64,000 nt of DNA from an uncultured Bacteroidales bacterium (GTDB lineage Bacteria; Bacteroidota; Bacteroidia; Bacteroidales; UBA932), in contig CASFPH010000009.1 in the NCBI GenBank assembly GCA_949296645.1, positions 1-64,000 of the forward strand, read 5' to 3'. This document shows positions 19,025 to 26,168 of the stretch, in pieces. The translations under genes were made by a program, and so were the position numbers. Position 1 is the first letter of the stretch; each line of letters opens with the position of its first letter. Below the pieces are notes generated by a model. The model saw only the letters and a program-made list of their open reading frames with translations. It did no database searches and was not told the DNA's origin.

Positions 19025-19339
19025 TTATTCGTTTAGCAATGCAATGCACTTGTCTATCTCACGTATAAGTCCGGTTATGACCTGCTTCGCTTCATTCGAA
19101 CTTCCCGAGGAAGCAACGAACGCCTCTCCCAACTGTAGCCTGTTTATTTTATCTTCCAGTTCTTTTTTTCTGTTGTTGTTTTTACTTATTTCAATTTCAT
19201 AGTGCAGTATGCGCGTCTTGTATTTAGAAATTTCGTCTTTCAGGCGCTCGTTCTCCGCAGCCGTTGTCTCATATCTGGAAATGAGCAATTCAATCTGGCT
19301 TTTCAGTTTCTCCAATGCCGTTCTTGACGTTTCTTTCAT
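19025..19339 (-). CDS. Coiled-coil protein in the zapA operon (ZapB-like)
   Basis: A 104-aa soluble protein made almost entirely of heptad repeats (LEKLKSQIELLISRYETTAAENERL and onward), with a short tail. The layout and the position just before zapA suggest a ZapB-like division factor, as in other Bacteroidota, but I see no sequence motif that proves it. The promoter element TATATTTG lies at 19375-19382. Confidence 0.75.
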   Translation of the reverse strand: MKETSRTALEKLKSQIELLISRYETTAAENERLKDEISKYKTRILHYEIEISKNNNRKKELEDKINRLQLGEAFVASSGSSNEAKQVITGLIREIDKCIALLNE

Positions 19340-19544: not shown

Positions 19545-20087
19545 CTATTTCTTTATAACCTTGTTCATACCGACCTGAATAGCCTGTTCATTCATAGGAA
19601 TGAGGTGATGATGCCTTTCAGGAATGGATTTCTTGAGTCCTTTGATGACATTCTCCATTTTTACTATAGGTTTCATCTTGAGGAATGCGCCAAGAACCAC
19701 CATATTGTATGCTTTAGCATTGCCGAGTTCCGCACATTCAGCAGCCGCATCTATTGTGCAAATGGTGATGTCGGTTCTTGTAGGATGGTGAGTAATACCA
19801 TTAGGATCATAAATAAGAAGTCCACCTGGTTTTACTGCACTTTCAAATTTGTCAAGTGACTGCTGGTTGAGAATGATTGCAGTATCGAACTTGTTGAGAA
19901 TAGGAGAACTGATTTTGTTGTCGCTTAAGATAACCGTAACATTTGCCGTACCACCTCTCATTTCAGGACCATATGACGGCATCCATGCCACTTCCTGATC
20001 CTGCATGATTCCGGAATACGCAAGGATTTTACCCATGGAAAGGACTCCCTGTCCTCCGAATCCTGCTATAATTATTTCTTCTTTCAT
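19545..20087 (-). CDS. 2-oxoacid:ferredoxin oxidoreductase, gamma subunit
   Basis: The 180-aa gamma subunit of the 2-oxoacid:acceptor oxidoreductase complex, which binds CoA and helps transfer the acyl group. It opens with the family signature IIIAGFGGQGVLSMGKILAY and has SYGPEMRGGTANVTV. It is the last gene of a six-gene minus-strand operon (acyl-CoA synthetase, small membrane protein, ferredoxin, alpha, beta, gamma). With its partners it oxidises a 2-oxoacid to acyl-CoA and CO2 and reduces ferredoxin. Confidence 0.92.
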   Translation of the reverse strand: MKEEIIIAGFGGQGVLSMGKILAYSGIMQDQEVAWMPSYGPEMRGGTANVTVILSDNKISSPILNKFDTAIILNQQSLDKFESAVKPGGLLIYDPNGITHHPTRTDITICTIDAAAECAELGNAKAYNMVVLGAFLKMKPIVKMENVIKGLKKSIPERHHHLIPMNEQAIQVGMNKVIKK

Positions 20088-20104: not shown

Positions 20105-20866
20105 TTAAATGTCTTTAATATCACCGACCGGATATTTAGGGAACATGTTTTCCTCCATCCATTGGTTGGCCTTTACAGGATTCATCTTCCATCCTGAGTT
20201 GCAGGTACCTACAACTTCAATGAATGATGTACCTTTCTTCATCATTGAATTCTCGAATGCTTTTCTGATTGCCTTTTTGGCTTTTCTTACCGCTACAGGA
20301 TTCTGTACCGACTGTCTAGTCACATAACATGTCCCGTCTAGCTGTGCGATAAGTTCGGTTAGTTTGAGCGGATAACCGTTGAGTTCTGCGTTTCTTCCGT
20401 AAGGGGTAGTTGCGGTAACCATTCCCAGAAGTGTAGTCGGTGCCATCTGGCCTCCTGTCATACCGTAAATGGCATTGTTTACGAATATGACTACGATGTT
20501 TTCGCCCCTGTTGCATGCGTGCATGATTTCACCAGCACCTATCGAAGCGAGGTCACCGTCTCCCTGATATGTGAATACGTATTTTTCAGGATTGAGTCTT
20601 TTGATTGCCGTGGCAAGAGCAGGAGCTCTACCGTGAGCAGCCTCTTCCCAGTCTATGTCAAGGTAGTTGTATGCGAGAACGGCACATCCTACAGGAGATA
20701 CGCCTACGGTCTTGTCCTGGATACCCATCTCTTCGATAACTTCAGCAATAAGCTTGTGAATCACACCGTGAGAACATCCCGGACAATAGTGCATGACATT
20801 GTCGGTAAGGACAGGTGTTTTACCGTATACCTTATTTTCTTCTTTGATTATATCTTTAATATCCAT
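20105..20866 (-). CDS. 2-oxoacid:ferredoxin oxidoreductase, beta (TPP) subunit
   Basis: The thiamine-diphosphate subunit (253 aa). The TPP/metal motif is GDGDLASIGAGEIMHACNRGENIVVIFVNN-like, with GDGD near residue 92 and the second metal ligands at NNAIYGMTGGQMAPTT. CPGCSHG near residue 28 is a typical cysteine segment of these beta subunits. ATG at 20866 is chosen; a frame open to 20911 would overlap the upstream alpha gene and adds an atypical extension. The TTLLGMVTATTPYGRN segment is shared by the ketoisovalerate and 2-oxoglutarate branches, so the exact substrate is not settled by sequence alone. Confidence 0.92.
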   Translation of the reverse strand: MDIKDIIKEENKVYGKTPVLTDNVMHYCPGCSHGVIHKLIAEVIEEMGIQDKTVGVSPVGCAVLAYNYLDIDWEEAAHGRAPALATAIKRLNPEKYVFTYQGDGDLASIGAGEIMHACNRGENIVVIFVNNAIYGMTGGQMAPTTLLGMVTATTPYGRNAELNGYPLKLTELIAQLDGTCYVTRQSVQNPVAVRKAKKAIRKAFENSMMKKGTSFIEVVGTCNSGWKMNPVKANQWMEENMFPKYPVGDIKDI

Positions 20867-20873
20867 TGTCCTA

Positions 20874-21950
20874 TTATTTAAATCTCTTAACAATTGCTTC
20901 GTAAATTTCATCCGGAGATGCTACCACACCGCCCATTCTTCCGAAGAAGTGAACAGGTACCTTTCCGTTTGCTATGAGTTTGAGGTCTTCAACCATCTGG
21001 CCTGCGTTAAGTTCCACGCTCATCATTGATTTAAGTTGAGGAAGACGGTTTTCGATAGCCTTCTTAGGGAACGGGAACAGGGTGATAGGTCTGAGGAGAC
21101 CGACTTTGATGCCTTCTTCTCTGGCTCTGTCTATTGCAGTTTCTGCGATTCTGGCCATACATCCGAAGGCTACGATAAGATGTTCGGCATCGTCACATCT
21201 GTATTCGGTGTAACGGACTTCGTTTTCTTCAACTGTTCTGTATTTTTCCTGAAGATGGATATTGTGCTTTTCCTGACTTACAGGGTCGAGGTCAAGAGAT
21301 GTGATGATGTTTCTCTTTCTGTCCGCTGTCTTTCCGGTTGCGGCCCAAGGTGCATTCTTGATTATTTCTTCTGCAGTCCATCTCGGTTTCTGTTCCTTGA
21401 TTTCAACCTTTTCCATCATCTGTCCGATGACACCGTCGGCAAGAATCATTGCCGGCATGCGGTACTTGAATGCAAGTTCGAATGCAAGGTCAACGAAATC
21501 GTACATTTCCTGGCCGTATGCAGGAGCAAGCACGATTATCTTGTAGTCACCGTGTCCGCCGCCTTTTGTAGCCTGAAAATAGTCGGACTGAGAAGGCTGG
21601 ATGGTACCGAGACCAGGACCTCCCCTCTGTACGTCAACGACAAGACAAGGCAGTTCTGCGCCAGCCATATAGCTGATACCTTCACACATCAGACTTATTC
21701 CAGGGCTGCTGGATGAAGTCATCACTTTCTTTCCTGTACCTGCACCACCGTAGACCATGTTGATGGATGCTGTTTCACTTTCAGCCTGAAGTACGACCAT
21801 TCCGGTTGTTTCCCAAGGCTTTTCGGCCATTAATGTTTCCATCACTTCTGACTGGGGGGTGATAGGATAGCCGAAATAACCGTCGCATCCGCAGTGGATA
21901 GCTGCCAATGCGATGGCTTCATTTCCTTTAAGTAGTATTTTCTCTGCCAT
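20874..21950 (-). CDS. vorB: 3-methyl-2-oxobutanoate (2-ketoisovalerate) ferredoxin oxidoreductase, alpha subunit
   Basis: The 358-aa alpha subunit starts ILLKGNEAIALAAIHCGCDGYFGYPITPQSEVME, where YPITP is the substrate-handling motif of the superfamily. DVQRGGPGLGTIQPSQSD is typical of the VorB-type alpha subunits of Bacteroidota. VOR converts the 2-oxoacids of valine, leucine and isoleucine to branched acyl-CoA. Coupling in the operon with an ADP-forming acyl-CoA synthetase supports an amino-acid-degrading, ATP-yielding role. 2-oxoglutarate cannot be excluded as substrate. Confidence 0.88.
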   Translation of the reverse strand: MAEKILLKGNEAIALAAIHCGCDGYFGYPITPQSEVMETLMAEKPWETTGMVVLQAESETASINMVYGGAGTGKKVMTSSSSPGISLMCEGISYMAGAELPCLVVDVQRGGPGLGTIQPSQSDYFQATKGGGHGDYKIIVLAPAYGQEMYDFVDLAFELAFKYRMPAMILADGVIGQMMEKVEIKEQKPRWTAEEIIKNAPWAATGKTADRKRNIITSLDLDPVSQEKHNIHLQEKYRTVEENEVRYTEYRCDDAEHLIVAFGCMARIAETAIDRAREEGIKVGLLRPITLFPFPKKAIENRLPQLKSMMSVELNAGQMVEDLKLIANGKVPVHFFGRMGGVVASPDEIYEAIVKRFK

Positions 21951-21963
21951 ATCTCTGAATTTA

Positions 21964-22185
21964 TTAGATCTTAACTCGATAAACGGTAATTACCGAGTCC
22001 GGACATACCGTTGCACAATTTGTACATCCTGTGCATGACTCAGGGTTTGCCATGTAGGCGAAGTTGTACCCTTTTCCATTGACCTCCTTGGACAAGGCAA
22101 TGGTTTTTGTGGGACAGTTTGCAACGCAAACGCCGCAGCCTTTGCATTTTTCGTTGTCAACCACGATTGCTCCTCTTAGTGCCAT
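21964..22185 (-). CDS. 2x[4Fe-4S] ferredoxin (delta) subunit of the oxidoreductase
   Basis: A 73-aa ferredoxin-like protein with two complete cluster motifs, CKGCGVCVANCP (near 14-25) and CTGCTNCATVCP (near 51-62). It wires electrons from the TPP site to free ferredoxin. It is 13 nt upstream of the alpha gene and starts the oxidoreductase part of the operon. Confidence 0.93.
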   Translation of the reverse strand: MALRGAIVVDNEKCKGCGVCVANCPTKTIALSKEVNGKGYNFAYMANPESCTGCTNCATVCPDSVITVYRVKI

Positions 22186-22215
22186 ATTGTATTATTTGTT
22201 ATTGGGTTATGTTGT

Positions 22216-22371
22216 TTATTTTGTACTGAAAAATTCAAATCCGGCTCTGATGCCTTCGATTATCGAGTTCCATCGTATTATTATGCCAATTACAAGCAGT
22301 ATGAACAATACTATGAAACCCTGCATGGTCGGCGTCTGTTCCTTGTATTTTTCTATAAGTCTTTTCAGCAT
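22216..22371 (-). CDS. 51-aa single-span membrane protein in the acyl-CoA/2-oxoacid operon
   Basis: A small gene starting with ATG at 22371, two bases after the stop of the acyl-CoA synthetase (TAAAATG), and ending with TAA at 22216-22218. The product begins MLKRLIEKYKEQTPTMQ, has one hydrophobic span GFIVLFILLVIGIIIRW (about 18-34) and a short polar tail ending FEFFSTK. The position inside a tight operon, a clean start and stop, and a typical positive-inside N-terminus support a real gene. No family is known to me; it may anchor or modulate one of the neighbouring enzymes, but that is a guess. Confidence 0.75.
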   Translation of the reverse strand: MLKRLIEKYKEQTPTMQGFIVLFILLVIGIIIRWNSIIEGIRAGFEFFSTK

Positions 22372-22372
22372 T

Positions 22373-24424
22373 TTACTTTTCTATTCTTATCCTTGCATCC
22401 ACGGTTGTAACGGTCTTCGGATTACCCAGAAGAGGATTCAGGTCCATTTCGTATATTTCCGGAGCTATTCTGCACAATGCGGAAACACGCCTTATCGCTT
22501 CATTGAACAATACTTCGTTCACTCCTTCCTGTCCTCTTGTTCCCTGGATCAGCTTGTATCCGCGAAGCGAATGTATCATGTTGTCGGCTTCCGTTTTTGA
22601 TACAGGAGTGAGTCCTGAAGAAACGTCCTTTAAGGCTTCGATGAATATTCCGCCAAGTCCGCACATTACCAGATGTCCGAATTTGCCTTCGCGTTTTGCT
22701 CCTATGAAAAGCTGCGTCCCTGTCAGCATCGGCTGGAGCAGGACTGCAGTGGTGTCCTTGATCTTCATCATTCTTGCAAATTCCGAAAACAGTGTTCCGT
22801 CGTCGTTTATACCGAGTGTTACACCTCCGACGTCAGTCTTGTGCACAGGTCCCACTACCTTCATCACTATCGGATAACCTATTGCCTTGGCTTCCCTGAT
22901 AAGGTCTTTTTCGTTGTTGACTACGGCTTCCCTTGCCCTTGATATGCCGGCGGCGTCGAGCAGAATCTGAACCTTGTCCGGCGACAGGTATCCGTTGCCG
23001 GCTTCATCGATGACTTTCCTTATCATTGCTATGTCTACAGGGGCCGATTCCTCTTCCCTGATGGCTCCGGTTGCGTTCAGAACTTCCGAAAGTGCTTTTC
23101 CGAAAGGCACTTCGTCAGGGAAACAGACGCCTCCCTTGTCCATGAAGTACTGTATTTCATCCTTTACGTTTATCACCGAAGGCAGTACAGGATAAATAGG
23201 TTTTGTGGATTTGCTTATCTTGTCCCATAGAACATCGTAAACGTCGTATACATGTCCCAGTCCAGGTGAGCCGAATATGACTACCACGGCGTCCACGTCG
23301 AAGTCGTTTTCGCATGCATCAAGAATATGGCCCAGCTGTTCGGCAGTACCTGTGGCCAGGAAGTCTATCGGGTTTGCGACTGACGATCCTGGATAAAGTT
23401 TTTCGAGAAGTTCCTTTGCCTTTTCTCCCTTTATTTCAGGAATCTTTATTCCGTTTGTAGAGAGTACGTCCGTAAGCATGACTGCAGGACCTCCGGCATG
23501 TGTTACGATTGCTATCTTTTTGCCTTTAGGTTTCGGGAATGTAAGTACGGATGCCAAGGTGACAAGTTCCGTTCTCCCGTAACATCTTATTATGCCTGCC
23601 TTTTTGAAAAGAGCGTCAACTGCCTGGTCTGGAGAAGCCAGAGCTCCGGTGTGTGATGATGCGGCACGGCTTCCTGCTTCGCTGTAACCTGATTTGATTG
23701 CAGCAACCGTCGCTCCTTTCAGACTCAGTGAGCGTGCATGTTTCAGAAGCTTTTCAGGATTATTGATACTTTCGATGTACAGCAGTTTTACAGGAGAACT
23801 TACACCCGGTTCATATGATTCGTCGAGGTATTCGAGTATGTCCTCTACTCCAAGCTGTGCGCTGTTCCCTACCGAGAATATAGAAGAAAACCTCAGTCCC
23901 AGGTTCATTGCAGCTTCAAGTATGAATACTACAGTGGCGCCTGAACCGGATATTATGTCCGCACCATATGAGGACAGTTTCGGAACAGGTTTGGTGAACA
24001 GTCCGGCATAGTTTGGAGTCATCACTCCGATGCAGTTCGGGCCTATCAGGGATGCCCCCGTCTCGTTGACTATGTCAGTTATCTCCTTTTCTATTCTGGC
24101 TCCTTCCTCACCGTCTTCATGGAATCCGGCGGAAAATATTATGACGGCCTTGCAGCCTTTTTTCTTGCAAAGTGTTTCTACGGCCTGGGTGCACGATCCT
24201 GCGGGAATGGCAAGTATTGCGAGATCCACATCCGACAACTCGTCAACTGACTTGCATGCCTTTATTCCCTGAACATATTCAGCCTTAGGGTTTACTACAT
24301 GTATCTTTCCGCTGTATCCGGTGTGAATAAGATTGTACAGGGCGTTGCCTCCCGGTTTTCTTACATCGTCGGACCCCCCTACGACAACGATGCTCTTTGG
24401 ATTTATAAGTTGTTTAGTTACCAT
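22373..24424 (-). CDS. ADP-forming acetyl/acyl-CoA synthetase (fused alpha-beta)
   Basis: The 683-aa enzyme converts acyl-CoA, ADP and phosphate to acid, CoA and ATP. The alpha part (about 1-460) has a CoA-binding Rossmann domain (SIVVVGGSDDVRKPGGNALYN) and succinyl-CoA-ligase-like domains with SSHTGALA carrying the phospho-histidine (near residue 257). The beta part (about 470-683) is an ATP-grasp domain with YPIVMKVVGPVHKTDVGGV and GLGGIFIE. Fusion of the two parts is common in Bacteroidota. It heads the operon with the 2-oxoacid:ferredoxin oxidoreductase, so the acyl-CoA made there is the expected substrate. Confidence 0.93.
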   Translation of the reverse strand: MVTKQLINPKSIVVVGGSDDVRKPGGNALYNLIHTGYSGKIHVVNPKAEYVQGIKACKSVDELSDVDLAILAIPAGSCTQAVETLCKKKGCKAVIIFSAGFHEDGEEGARIEKEITDIVNETGASLIGPNCIGVMTPNYAGLFTKPVPKLSSYGADIISGSGATVVFILEAAMNLGLRFSSIFSVGNSAQLGVEDILEYLDESYEPGVSSPVKLLYIESINNPEKLLKHARSLSLKGATVAAIKSGYSEAGSRAASSHTGALASPDQAVDALFKKAGIIRCYGRTELVTLASVLTFPKPKGKKIAIVTHAGGPAVMLTDVLSTNGIKIPEIKGEKAKELLEKLYPGSSVANPIDFLATGTAEQLGHILDACENDFDVDAVVVIFGSPGLGHVYDVYDVLWDKISKSTKPIYPVLPSVINVKDEIQYFMDKGGVCFPDEVPFGKALSEVLNATGAIREEESAPVDIAMIRKVIDEAGNGYLSPDKVQILLDAAGISRAREAVVNNEKDLIREAKAIGYPIVMKVVGPVHKTDVGGVTLGINDDGTLFSEFARMMKIKDTTAVLLQPMLTGTQLFIGAKREGKFGHLVMCGLGGIFIEALKDVSSGLTPVSKTEADNMIHSLRGYKLIQGTRGQEGVNEVLFNEAIRRVSALCRIAPEIYEMDLNPLLGNPKTVTTVDARIRIEK

Positions 24425-24443
24425 ATCGTATATTAATTTCAGA

Positions 24444-24451
24444 CAAAGATA
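24444..24451 (-). promoter_or_regulatory. -7 promoter element TATCTTTG for the acyl-CoA synthetase operon
   Basis: Exact TAnnTTTG on the minus strand, 19 nt before the ATG at 24424. Confidence 0.6.
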
Positions 24452-24521
24452 ATAAAAATCATGAAATATAAATAAAACGATTAATGTTTTTAACTGTCTG
24501 TCGGATAGTGCTTGAAAAATG

Positions 24522-26168
24522 TTACAAATCCACGGTTTTGACTGATACAGGTCTGTTCCTGCATATTCTTTTGTCGAAGGCGAACCAGTATCTTTTTCCG
24601 AAATGTCTGTCCGTGACGTATCTGTATGTCAGGAAAGGGTTGTCTTTGTCAAGCAGGGGATTTTCATGCCGGCAATCATCGAATTTCCACATGATTGAAA
24701 GAGACCCGAAGTCCTTTTTTACTGAAAGTCCTGCTTCGATCCAGTACCTGACGAATGACGGAATCAGTTCCGGTCTGTGTTTTTCCGTGAATTTCCCGAG
24801 AATTCCGGCCCTTGCTTCCTTACCGAGTAGTTCAGATATGAGCATCCTGTCTCCGGTAAATTCAAGAAGTTCTGTCAATGTATCTTTCCCGCTGACAAGA
24901 ATCCTGAAGAAATTCCTCCATTCAGGATCGTTGTACCAGAAATCGAGCATGCGCGATATTTTCATGGCCTTTATAAGTTCGTCATAGGAAATATCAGGGG
25001 TGGAGAGTACTTCGTACGGGGGAAGCGGGGAATATTTTATACCGTGTTGTACCGAATGTTCCCTCATGTGTGTCCCGGGGAGCAGTTTCAGCAATTCGAG
25101 TTGAATTTCGTGTACTCCTGTGCCTGTAAGGACGGCTACATCTTCCAGCAACCTGTCCAAAGTATATCCCGGAAGACCGGCTATGAGGTCTGTGTGTATT
25201 TCCGAGTAACTGTTTTCAATCAGGTTGCGGATTCCGGCAAATGCTTTTTCTGAACTTCCTTTTCTTCGGCAGAGTGTGATTACGTTTTCATCCAGACTCT
25301 GGATTCCCGCTTCGAGGTGTAGAAGCCCTCGCGGCATTGCGGAAATTCTTTCCATGAGTTTCCTGTTCATGAGTGCGGGATGTATTTCCAGATGGAACCT
25401 GATCTTTCCCGAAAAATCCCCGAATATTTCGAGCATTTCGGAAGCTCTCTCCGGCTTTGCATTGAATGTCCTGTCCAGAATGCGTATTTCACGTATTCCA
25501 TGTTTACATGCATTTTCTATGCGTGAACGTATATCCGGAATATCTATTTCCTGTGTCCTCCCGTCCAGCCCGCTTATGCAAAACGTGCAGGTGTTGAAGC
25601 ATCCTCTGGAAGTTTCGATTTGGATAAATGACTTGTCCCATCTGAAAAATACGGATGATTCAGGATATGACAGCGATGCGAAATTCTTTGTCTGTATTGC
25701 TGAACTGTCATGGTATGACCATGTGCCGTCGTTTCCCTTCTCAAGATAGCACATTCCGGGAATCATGCGGTATTTCAGAGGTGATGAGATGAGTTCATTG
25801 AAGATTTCCTCGCCTTCGCCCTTGAAAACCGCATCTACTTCCAGGTTTCTGTGGAGAAATTCCGAATTGTCTCCGAGAAATTCAGGCCCTCCGAGAAGTA
25901 CGGTGCATTCCGGATACAGTTGTTTTATTTTCTTTATGATTCTGATGGCATACTCATGATTGAAGAGCCACAACGTGGACATGAGCAGCTGCGGTGCGAA
26001 ATTTTCCGTTTCAGATATCAGTTCCTGTTCAGGGGTCTTTACGGTTCCGGATATTATTTTCCACTCGTGTGCATTTCTGGTTTCTTCATGAAGTTGTGCG
26101 TCGAGTGCCGGAATTGCCAGCGAAGAATGGGAATAGGATGAATTTATGTCTAACCAGAGTATACGCAT
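24522..26168 (-). CDS. B12-binding radical SAM enzyme (probably DUF4080 type)
   Basis: The 548-aa protein begins at ATG 26168 (MRILWLDINSSYSHSSLA); a longer open frame upstream is not supported. The N-terminal half is a cobalamin-binding-like Rossmann domain (about 1-140) with LLGGPEFLGDN, followed by a radical SAM barrel whose cluster motif is CFNTCTFC near residue 180. The C-terminal region resembles DUF4080. The reaction is unknown; relatives perform methylations or ring rearrangements. Each turnover of a radical SAM enzyme generates 5'-deoxyadenosine or, for methylation, SAH as well, and the divergent neighbour gene encodes a deaminase of those by-products. The two genes share one palindromic promoter. 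Confidence 0.82.
   Translation of the reverse strand: MRILWLDINSSYSHSSLAIPALDAQLHEETRNAHEWKIISGTVKTPEQELISETENFAPQLLMSTLWLFNHEYAIRIIKKIKQLYPECTVLLGGPEFLGDNSEFLHRNLEVDAVFKGEGEEIFNELISSPLKYRMIPGMCYLEKGNDGTWSYHDSSAIQTKNFASLSYPESSVFFRWDKSFIQIETSRGCFNTCTFCISGLDGRTQEIDIPDIRSRIENACKHGIREIRILDRTFNAKPERASEMLEIFGDFSGKIRFHLEIHPALMNRKLMERISAMPRGLLHLEAGIQSLDENVITLCRRKGSSEKAFAGIRNLIENSYSEIHTDLIAGLPGYTLDRLLEDVAVLTGTGVHEIQLELLKLLPGTHMREHSVQHGIKYSPLPPYEVLSTPDISYDELIKAMKISRMLDFWYNDPEWRNFFRILVSGKDTLTELLEFTGDRMLISELLGKEARAGILGKFTEKHRPELIPSFVRYWIEAGLSVKKDFGSLSIMWKFDDCRHENPLLDKDNPFLTYRYVTDRHFGKRYWFAFDKRICRNRPVSVKTVDL

Follow-up and report, generated by a model that had tools for sequence, protein, structure and literature searches.

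CydX, KdpF and AcrZ are small accessory membrane subunits with a single span, and can be encoded apart from their partner proteins. The 51-aa protein considered here, encoded in the window (the whole analysed stretch of 64,000 nucleotides from an uncultured Bacteroidales bacterium), is similar to these in size, single span and short charged tails, but differs in that its span is flanked on either side by an additional predicted helix. It also resembles the VorD/OorD delta subunits in being a small ORF in a vor operon; unlike these it contains no cysteine, and the neighbouring ferredoxin (21964-22185) fits that role. A weak likeness to the FXYD/phospholemman regulators of P-type ATPases extends over the span only, the FXYD motif does not occur in the window protein, and membership was rejected as non-significant on the basis of Pfam ATP1G1_PLM_MAT8 matches in three of 24 members (best E 0.024) and PDB entry 2jo1 (E 1.2). 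TatA shares the arrangement of a span followed by a second helix, but the small protein has a longer N-terminus and no FG hinge, and membership was likewise rejected, with a non-significant NCBIfam TatA match in one of 39 members (E 0.079).

The window protein matched no Pfam or NCBIfam family. Among its relatives, the best Pfam match was to bPH_7 (E 2.4e-4; two of 24 members, with one other relative scoring 16.4 bits against a cut-off of 25), and the best NCBIfam match (E 0.0057) occurred in one of 39 members. A profile search against the PDB gave no significant match (best E 0.98), Foldseek comparison of the predicted structure with the PDB returned no matches, and the titles and abstract openings surveyed, including those for the Mpv17-like cluster described below, revealed no paper on the small protein. 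We read the small protein as an undescribed, Bacteroidales-restricted family, which adds a small membrane protein maintained by selection, with no Pfam or NCBIfam model found, to a major gut and sediment order.

A conserved small gene between acyl-CoA synthetase and ferredoxin

The small gene forms part of a run of genes for an acyl-CoA synthetase (ACS) and a 2-oxoacid:ferredoxin oxidoreductase (Vor), all encoded on the minus strand:

22373..24424, minus strand, NDP(ADP)-forming acyl-CoA synthetase (ACS) of 683 aa (Pfam CoA_binding_2, Succ_CoA_lig, ATP-grasp_5), most often the gene found 5' of the small gene
22371..22216, minus strand, small gene of 51 aa (ATG 22371-22369, TAA 22218-22216), single-span membrane protein, identified by its ORF and family conservation
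21964..22185, minus strand, two-cluster 4Fe-4S ferredoxin of 73 aa, VorD/OorD-like (Fer4 family matches; top NCBIfam match OorD, below its cut-off)
20874..21950, minus strand, VorB, alpha subunit of the 2-oxoacid:ferredoxin oxidoreductase (NCBIfam NF005507, 540.8 bits, cut-off 399)
20105..20866, minus strand, VorA/KorB-like beta subunit (Pfam TPP_enzyme_C)
19545..20087, minus strand, VorC-like gamma subunit (Pfam POR)

The product of the small gene is MLKRLIEKYKEQTPTMQGFIVLFILLVIGIIIRWNSIIEGIRAGFEFFSTK. The 51-aa frame reported by the first-pass annotation is present, on the minus strand, and the plus-strand reading of 22216-22371 is not a gene. Its ATG lies close behind the upstream stop, as had been described, with exactly one base separating it from the ACS stop codon (22375-22373). 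Its own stop falls cleanly ahead of the ferredoxin, as also described, with a gap of 30 bases to the ferredoxin ATG at 22185. A structured RNA was rejected, no Rfam family having reached the gathering threshold in 21900-24700. Further downstream, a 104-aa coiled-coil-like ORF (19025-19339, minus strand) is located directly upstream of ZapA and is kept in G002 (47 %); its DivIC/ZapB-type matches are sub-threshold, and it is possibly a ZapB-like partner of ZapA.

As 18 kb of sequence holds 128 ORFs of at least 40 aa, an open frame of 51 codons is meaningless alone, and conservation was therefore used. The single-protein search, which is the independent one, matched 17 of 40 relatives (window genome included) at E<=0.1, of which sixteen are credible and belong to the same family, while the seventeenth (G035) carries an internal stop. 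With a 24-row profile, of which 15 of the 16 carriers were already rows or seeds, 16 of the 24 family genomes matched at E<=4e-18, namely the window genome and fifteen others in which the gene has no internal stop; G009 is a weak seventeenth match with this profile (8e-5). Comparison with the nearest relative (G001) gave a dN of 0.25 and a dS of 1.49, with third codon positions the least conserved. Eleven pairs were tested, and dN was lower than dS in all nine with a defined dS, the other two being saturated, and lower by a factor of three or more in 8/11; the near-identical L069/L091 pair (dN 0.014, dS 0.026) is uninformative. The small gene is a real, conserved coding sequence under protein-level selection, and the earlier description of a genuine small membrane-protein gene inside the ACS/Vor operon is upheld by its homologues in 16/24 family genomes and by dN < dS.

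The single clear membrane span that had been noted coincides with a Kyte-Doolittle maximum of 2.94 in the window protein (17-residue window) and with the central helix of an AlphaFold2 model based on 24 aligned relatives (helices 2-10, 14-32 and 34-50; mean pLDDT 90, pTM 0.52). This middle helix, about residues 14-32, is predicted to be membrane-spanning, and one predicted span in about 50-60 aa is conserved in the family, as in a small accessory membrane subunit. The Lys/Arg-rich N-terminus recognised earlier is a property of both the window protein and the family, where the mean net charge is +3.2 on the N side of the span and +1.4 on the C side. The N side is the more positive in 43 of 52 members, and an N-in orientation is therefore favoured. 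The protein would thus insert N-in/C-out, and the flanking helices may lie along the membrane. Conserved columns in the 52-row alignment include K17 (41/52; Q in the window protein), L26 (45), I30 (43), R33 (36), W34 (43), G44 (38), F45 (36) and position 48, which is F or Y in 45/52 members, with R33 and W34 predicted to form an Arg-Trp belt between the span and the second helix (34-50). Amphipathicity exceeded that of shuffled sequences at P<=0.05 for 18/52 C-terminal helices and 8/30 N-terminal segments, and is borderline for the C-terminal helix of the window protein itself, which is suggestive only of amphipathic flanking helices.

Distribution and genomic context of the small gene

The small gene is located between ACS and the ferredoxin gene in 10/16 family carriers, a count that includes G004, where ACS is broken by stops, and G021, where ACS is cut by the contig end. 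In the remaining six carriers it follows an intact ACS without ferredoxin (G020), a 219-aa ACS remnant (G014), a glycosyltransferase (G008) or an AddA-like helicase, in the latter case preceding an Mpv17-like gene (G007), or it stands by itself, flanked by an MBL-fold hydrolase and RNase Y (G002) or next to pgi (G015); the AddA, MBL, RNase Y, pgi and glycosyltransferase names were read from the sequence and are not profile calls. ACS and the small gene are on different contigs in G007 and G008, and no small gene follows ACS in either genome, while in G015 Vor is present, away from the small gene. No ACS was found in the G002 and G015 assemblies, and no VorB in G002 and G014, which yielded only distant matches (E 6.7e-21 and 4.5e-20) in frames of 619 and 622 aa that we take to be indolepyruvate oxidoreductase; the assemblies of G002, G015 and G014 consist of several contigs (completeness 96, 98 and 100 %, respectively), and a gene could fall in a gap. 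At the position of the window's whole operon, the G002 contig has just the small gene between the MBL hydrolase and RNase Y. Flanking genes are shared with both G002 and G014, including RNase-Y-like (84 and 85 %), pckA-like (76 and 72 %) and MBL-like (43 and 49 %) genes, and additionally deoD-like (61 %) and mtnA-like (49 %) genes in G014, all of these names again being read from the sequence. This synteny indicates that the lost enzymes of G002 and G014 once sat where the small gene remains. The ACS remnant of G014 (L035 8755-9414) comprises the ATP-grasp region in an intact frame of 219 aa, ends 2 nt before the small gene, and may represent decay or a repurposed single domain.

The reverse situation was also observed. 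In G016 and G017, ACS, ferredoxin, VorB, VorA and VorC occur in the same order and the small gene is missing, with gaps of 35 and 48 nt, respectively, between ACS and ferredoxin that hold no small frame (the G017 ACS is cut at the contig start), and a profile search found no homologue elsewhere in either assembly. The same type of search did not detect the small gene in G013 and G023, in which ACS and VorB are present; misses by the HMM are to be expected for a 51-aa family, so that an absence carries less weight than a presence. A VorB tree was built from 21 family genomes, leaving out G002, G012 and G014 since they lack VorB; on it, the presence and absence of the small gene requires six changes, at least two of which are forced by well-supported branches. 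For example, G017 (absent) pairs with G021 (present), with support of 97/89. Shuffled labels gave values as low in 326/500 cases, so the tree shows no clustering of presence; losses are as scattered as chance, and the small gene is therefore dispensable in some lineages. The small gene and ACS/Vor are dissociable in both directions. Operon context can thus mislead: in one genome the gene looks like a subunit of the operon, in the next it stands free.

At the order level, a 39-row profile matched 37/392 Bacteroidales genomes at E<=0.001. Thirty-five of these were accepted, many of them being profile seeds first found with the narrower 24-row profile, and two (G203 and G133) were dropped as not credible. 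ACS was detected at E<=1e-150 in 287/392 genomes. By coordinates, 26/35 small genes are directly 3' of ACS, including that of G320, where ACS is represented by a 37-aa piece at the end of a contig, while a twenty-seventh (G392) is one gene away, with an Mpv17-like gene in between. The other eight are found after a PiT phosphate permease (G110, G265), after a ZIP transporter (G129, G212, G277), downstream of a MATE-like frame (G333; name read from the sequence) or alone, in genomes without ACS at E<=1e-150 (G278, G327). Among 36 Bacteroidota ACS loci on named contigs, nine carry the small gene, always just after ACS; ferredoxin/Vor accompany it at seven of these but not at the other two (L043, L069), and locus L064 is probably not independent of G001. 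The gene is missing from the ACS loci of B. finegoldii and P. distasonis. Linkage to Vor hardly extends beyond the window's family and the wider linkage is to ACS: outside the family the small gene occurs with ACS and no Vor was seen within 1.5 kb, with the exception of G392 (L183), where ferredoxin and VorB lie about 2.3 kb downstream. In a class-level sample, 10/197 genomes other than that of the window yielded weak matches (E 2.8e-4 to 0.0095), with internal stops or in frames of 146-581 aa, and none of these was accepted. On these sequence comparisons, the family appears to be detectable only in the Bacteroidales. L117 and L118 are entered in PLSDB as 'plasmids', one of B. finegoldii and the other of P. 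distasonis, each with the label TSDC17.2-1.1; they contain genes of chromosomal type, among them ACS and those for hydrogenase maturation, and may be pieces of chromosomes.

Possible roles of the small protein

The first-pass annotation had proposed that the small protein might anchor the whole ACS/Vor/ferredoxin complex in the membrane, and had named relatives with the same operon but no frame as evidence to the contrary. The presence of the gene in the operon of the window, and of ten of the sixteen family carriers in all, speaks for an anchor, but the dissociation runs both ways: the complex occurs without the small gene in G016 and G017, which are relatives of precisely that kind, and the small gene occurs without VorB in G002, which also gave no ACS match, and in G014, where only the ACS remnant is left. 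Outside the family, moreover, the small gene accompanies ACS and no Vor was seen within 1.5 kb, G392 excepted. An anchor of the whole complex is thus very improbable and, as the wider link is with ACS (26/35) and that with Vor is nearly family-only, only a weaker version, in which the small protein works with ACS, survives. The small protein might in most lineages recruit ACS to the membrane, e.g. near an acid exporter or a phosphate supply, and have a second or decayed role where ACS has been lost. Its position directly 3' of ACS in 26/35 genomes, one gene off in a twenty-seventh, and still directly 3' of ACS where no Vor is nearby (L043, L069), makes such docking a possibility worth entertaining, if a doubtful one, given that the small gene is kept without ACS in G002, G015 and G014 (remnant only), in G278 and G327 (no ACS at E<=1e-150), beside a broken ACS in G004, and on a different contig from ACS in G007 and G008. 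Furthermore, ACS occurs in 287/392 genomes and the small gene in 35, a gap that is partly due to HMM sensitivity.

The setting in an acid-producing operon, and the PiT and ZIP transporters that adjoin the gene in other families, would suit a protein that helps the cell to export or tolerate the fatty acids, branched-chain ones among them, that Vor plus ACS release. This is rather unlikely, however, considering that there is no consistent transporter partner, that lineages which have lost ACS and Vor retain the gene, and that a single span of 51 aa is unlikely to transport alone. A chance open frame, or a translated leader regulating only the ferredoxin gene, agrees with the shortness of the gene and its location between co-directional genes, but the probability of either is negligible: sequence conservation and a dN well below dS rule out the former, while the latter is ruled out by solo copies that no ferredoxin gene follows, for instance in G002 and G015.

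The explanation we prefer, and to which we give an even chance, is that of a self-standing small inner-membrane protein which, as a subunit, assists or stabilises a widespread resident membrane protein, much as CydX, KdpF or AcrZ do, with its linkage to ACS arising by coupling. Situated one base after ACS, the small gene may draw its expression from an abundant fermentation transcript through translational coupling, and such coupling would explain the ACS linkage without an enzyme-anchoring role. The partner would be neither ACS, nor Vor, nor the Mpv17-like protein, because the small gene persists without each of these, and no consistent partner gene was found across the family and order contexts. 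Against such independence stands the strong ACS adjacency outside the family too (26/35), which it does not predict unless gene order changes slowly or coupling matters. The identity of the partner would show which function the Bacteroidales retain after loss of the adjoining enzymes. In a more specific version, which we consider improbable, the protein would be an accessory subunit of an energy-conserving membrane complex present throughout the Bacteroidales, co-expressed with the substrate-level ATP formation of ACS and, in other families, with the Mpv17-like protein and flavodoxin; if true, this would tie the end-steps of fermentation to membrane energetics.

The Mpv17-like neighbour

The Mpv17-like gene encodes a membrane protein of 230 aa that matches no Pfam or NCBIfam model at cut-off, the best Pfam hint being a sub-threshold one to Mpv17_PMP22 (E 0.019). 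In 15 of the 35 order-level matches it is found no more than 1 kb from the small gene, and at several loci a gene for a long-chain flavodoxin comes next (165.1 bits to TIGR01752, cut-off 146.75). At the order level the gene occurs in 180/392 genomes; in the window genome it is located on another contig (G000:C8:71896-72582). Since eight of the sixteen family carriers have the Mpv17-like gene and the other eight do not, it was rejected as an obligate partner of the small protein. A recurrent Bacteroidales cluster, consisting of ACS, the small protein, in some cases a 92-aa membrane protein, the Mpv17-like protein and flavodoxin, is seen in L094, L095, L099, L101 (where PiT replaces ACS), L102, L116 and others. 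Within genus g43, the Mpv17-like gene has a single in-frame TAA or TAG in G147, G228, G290 and G344, and none in G390; these stops may reflect decay, or something else.
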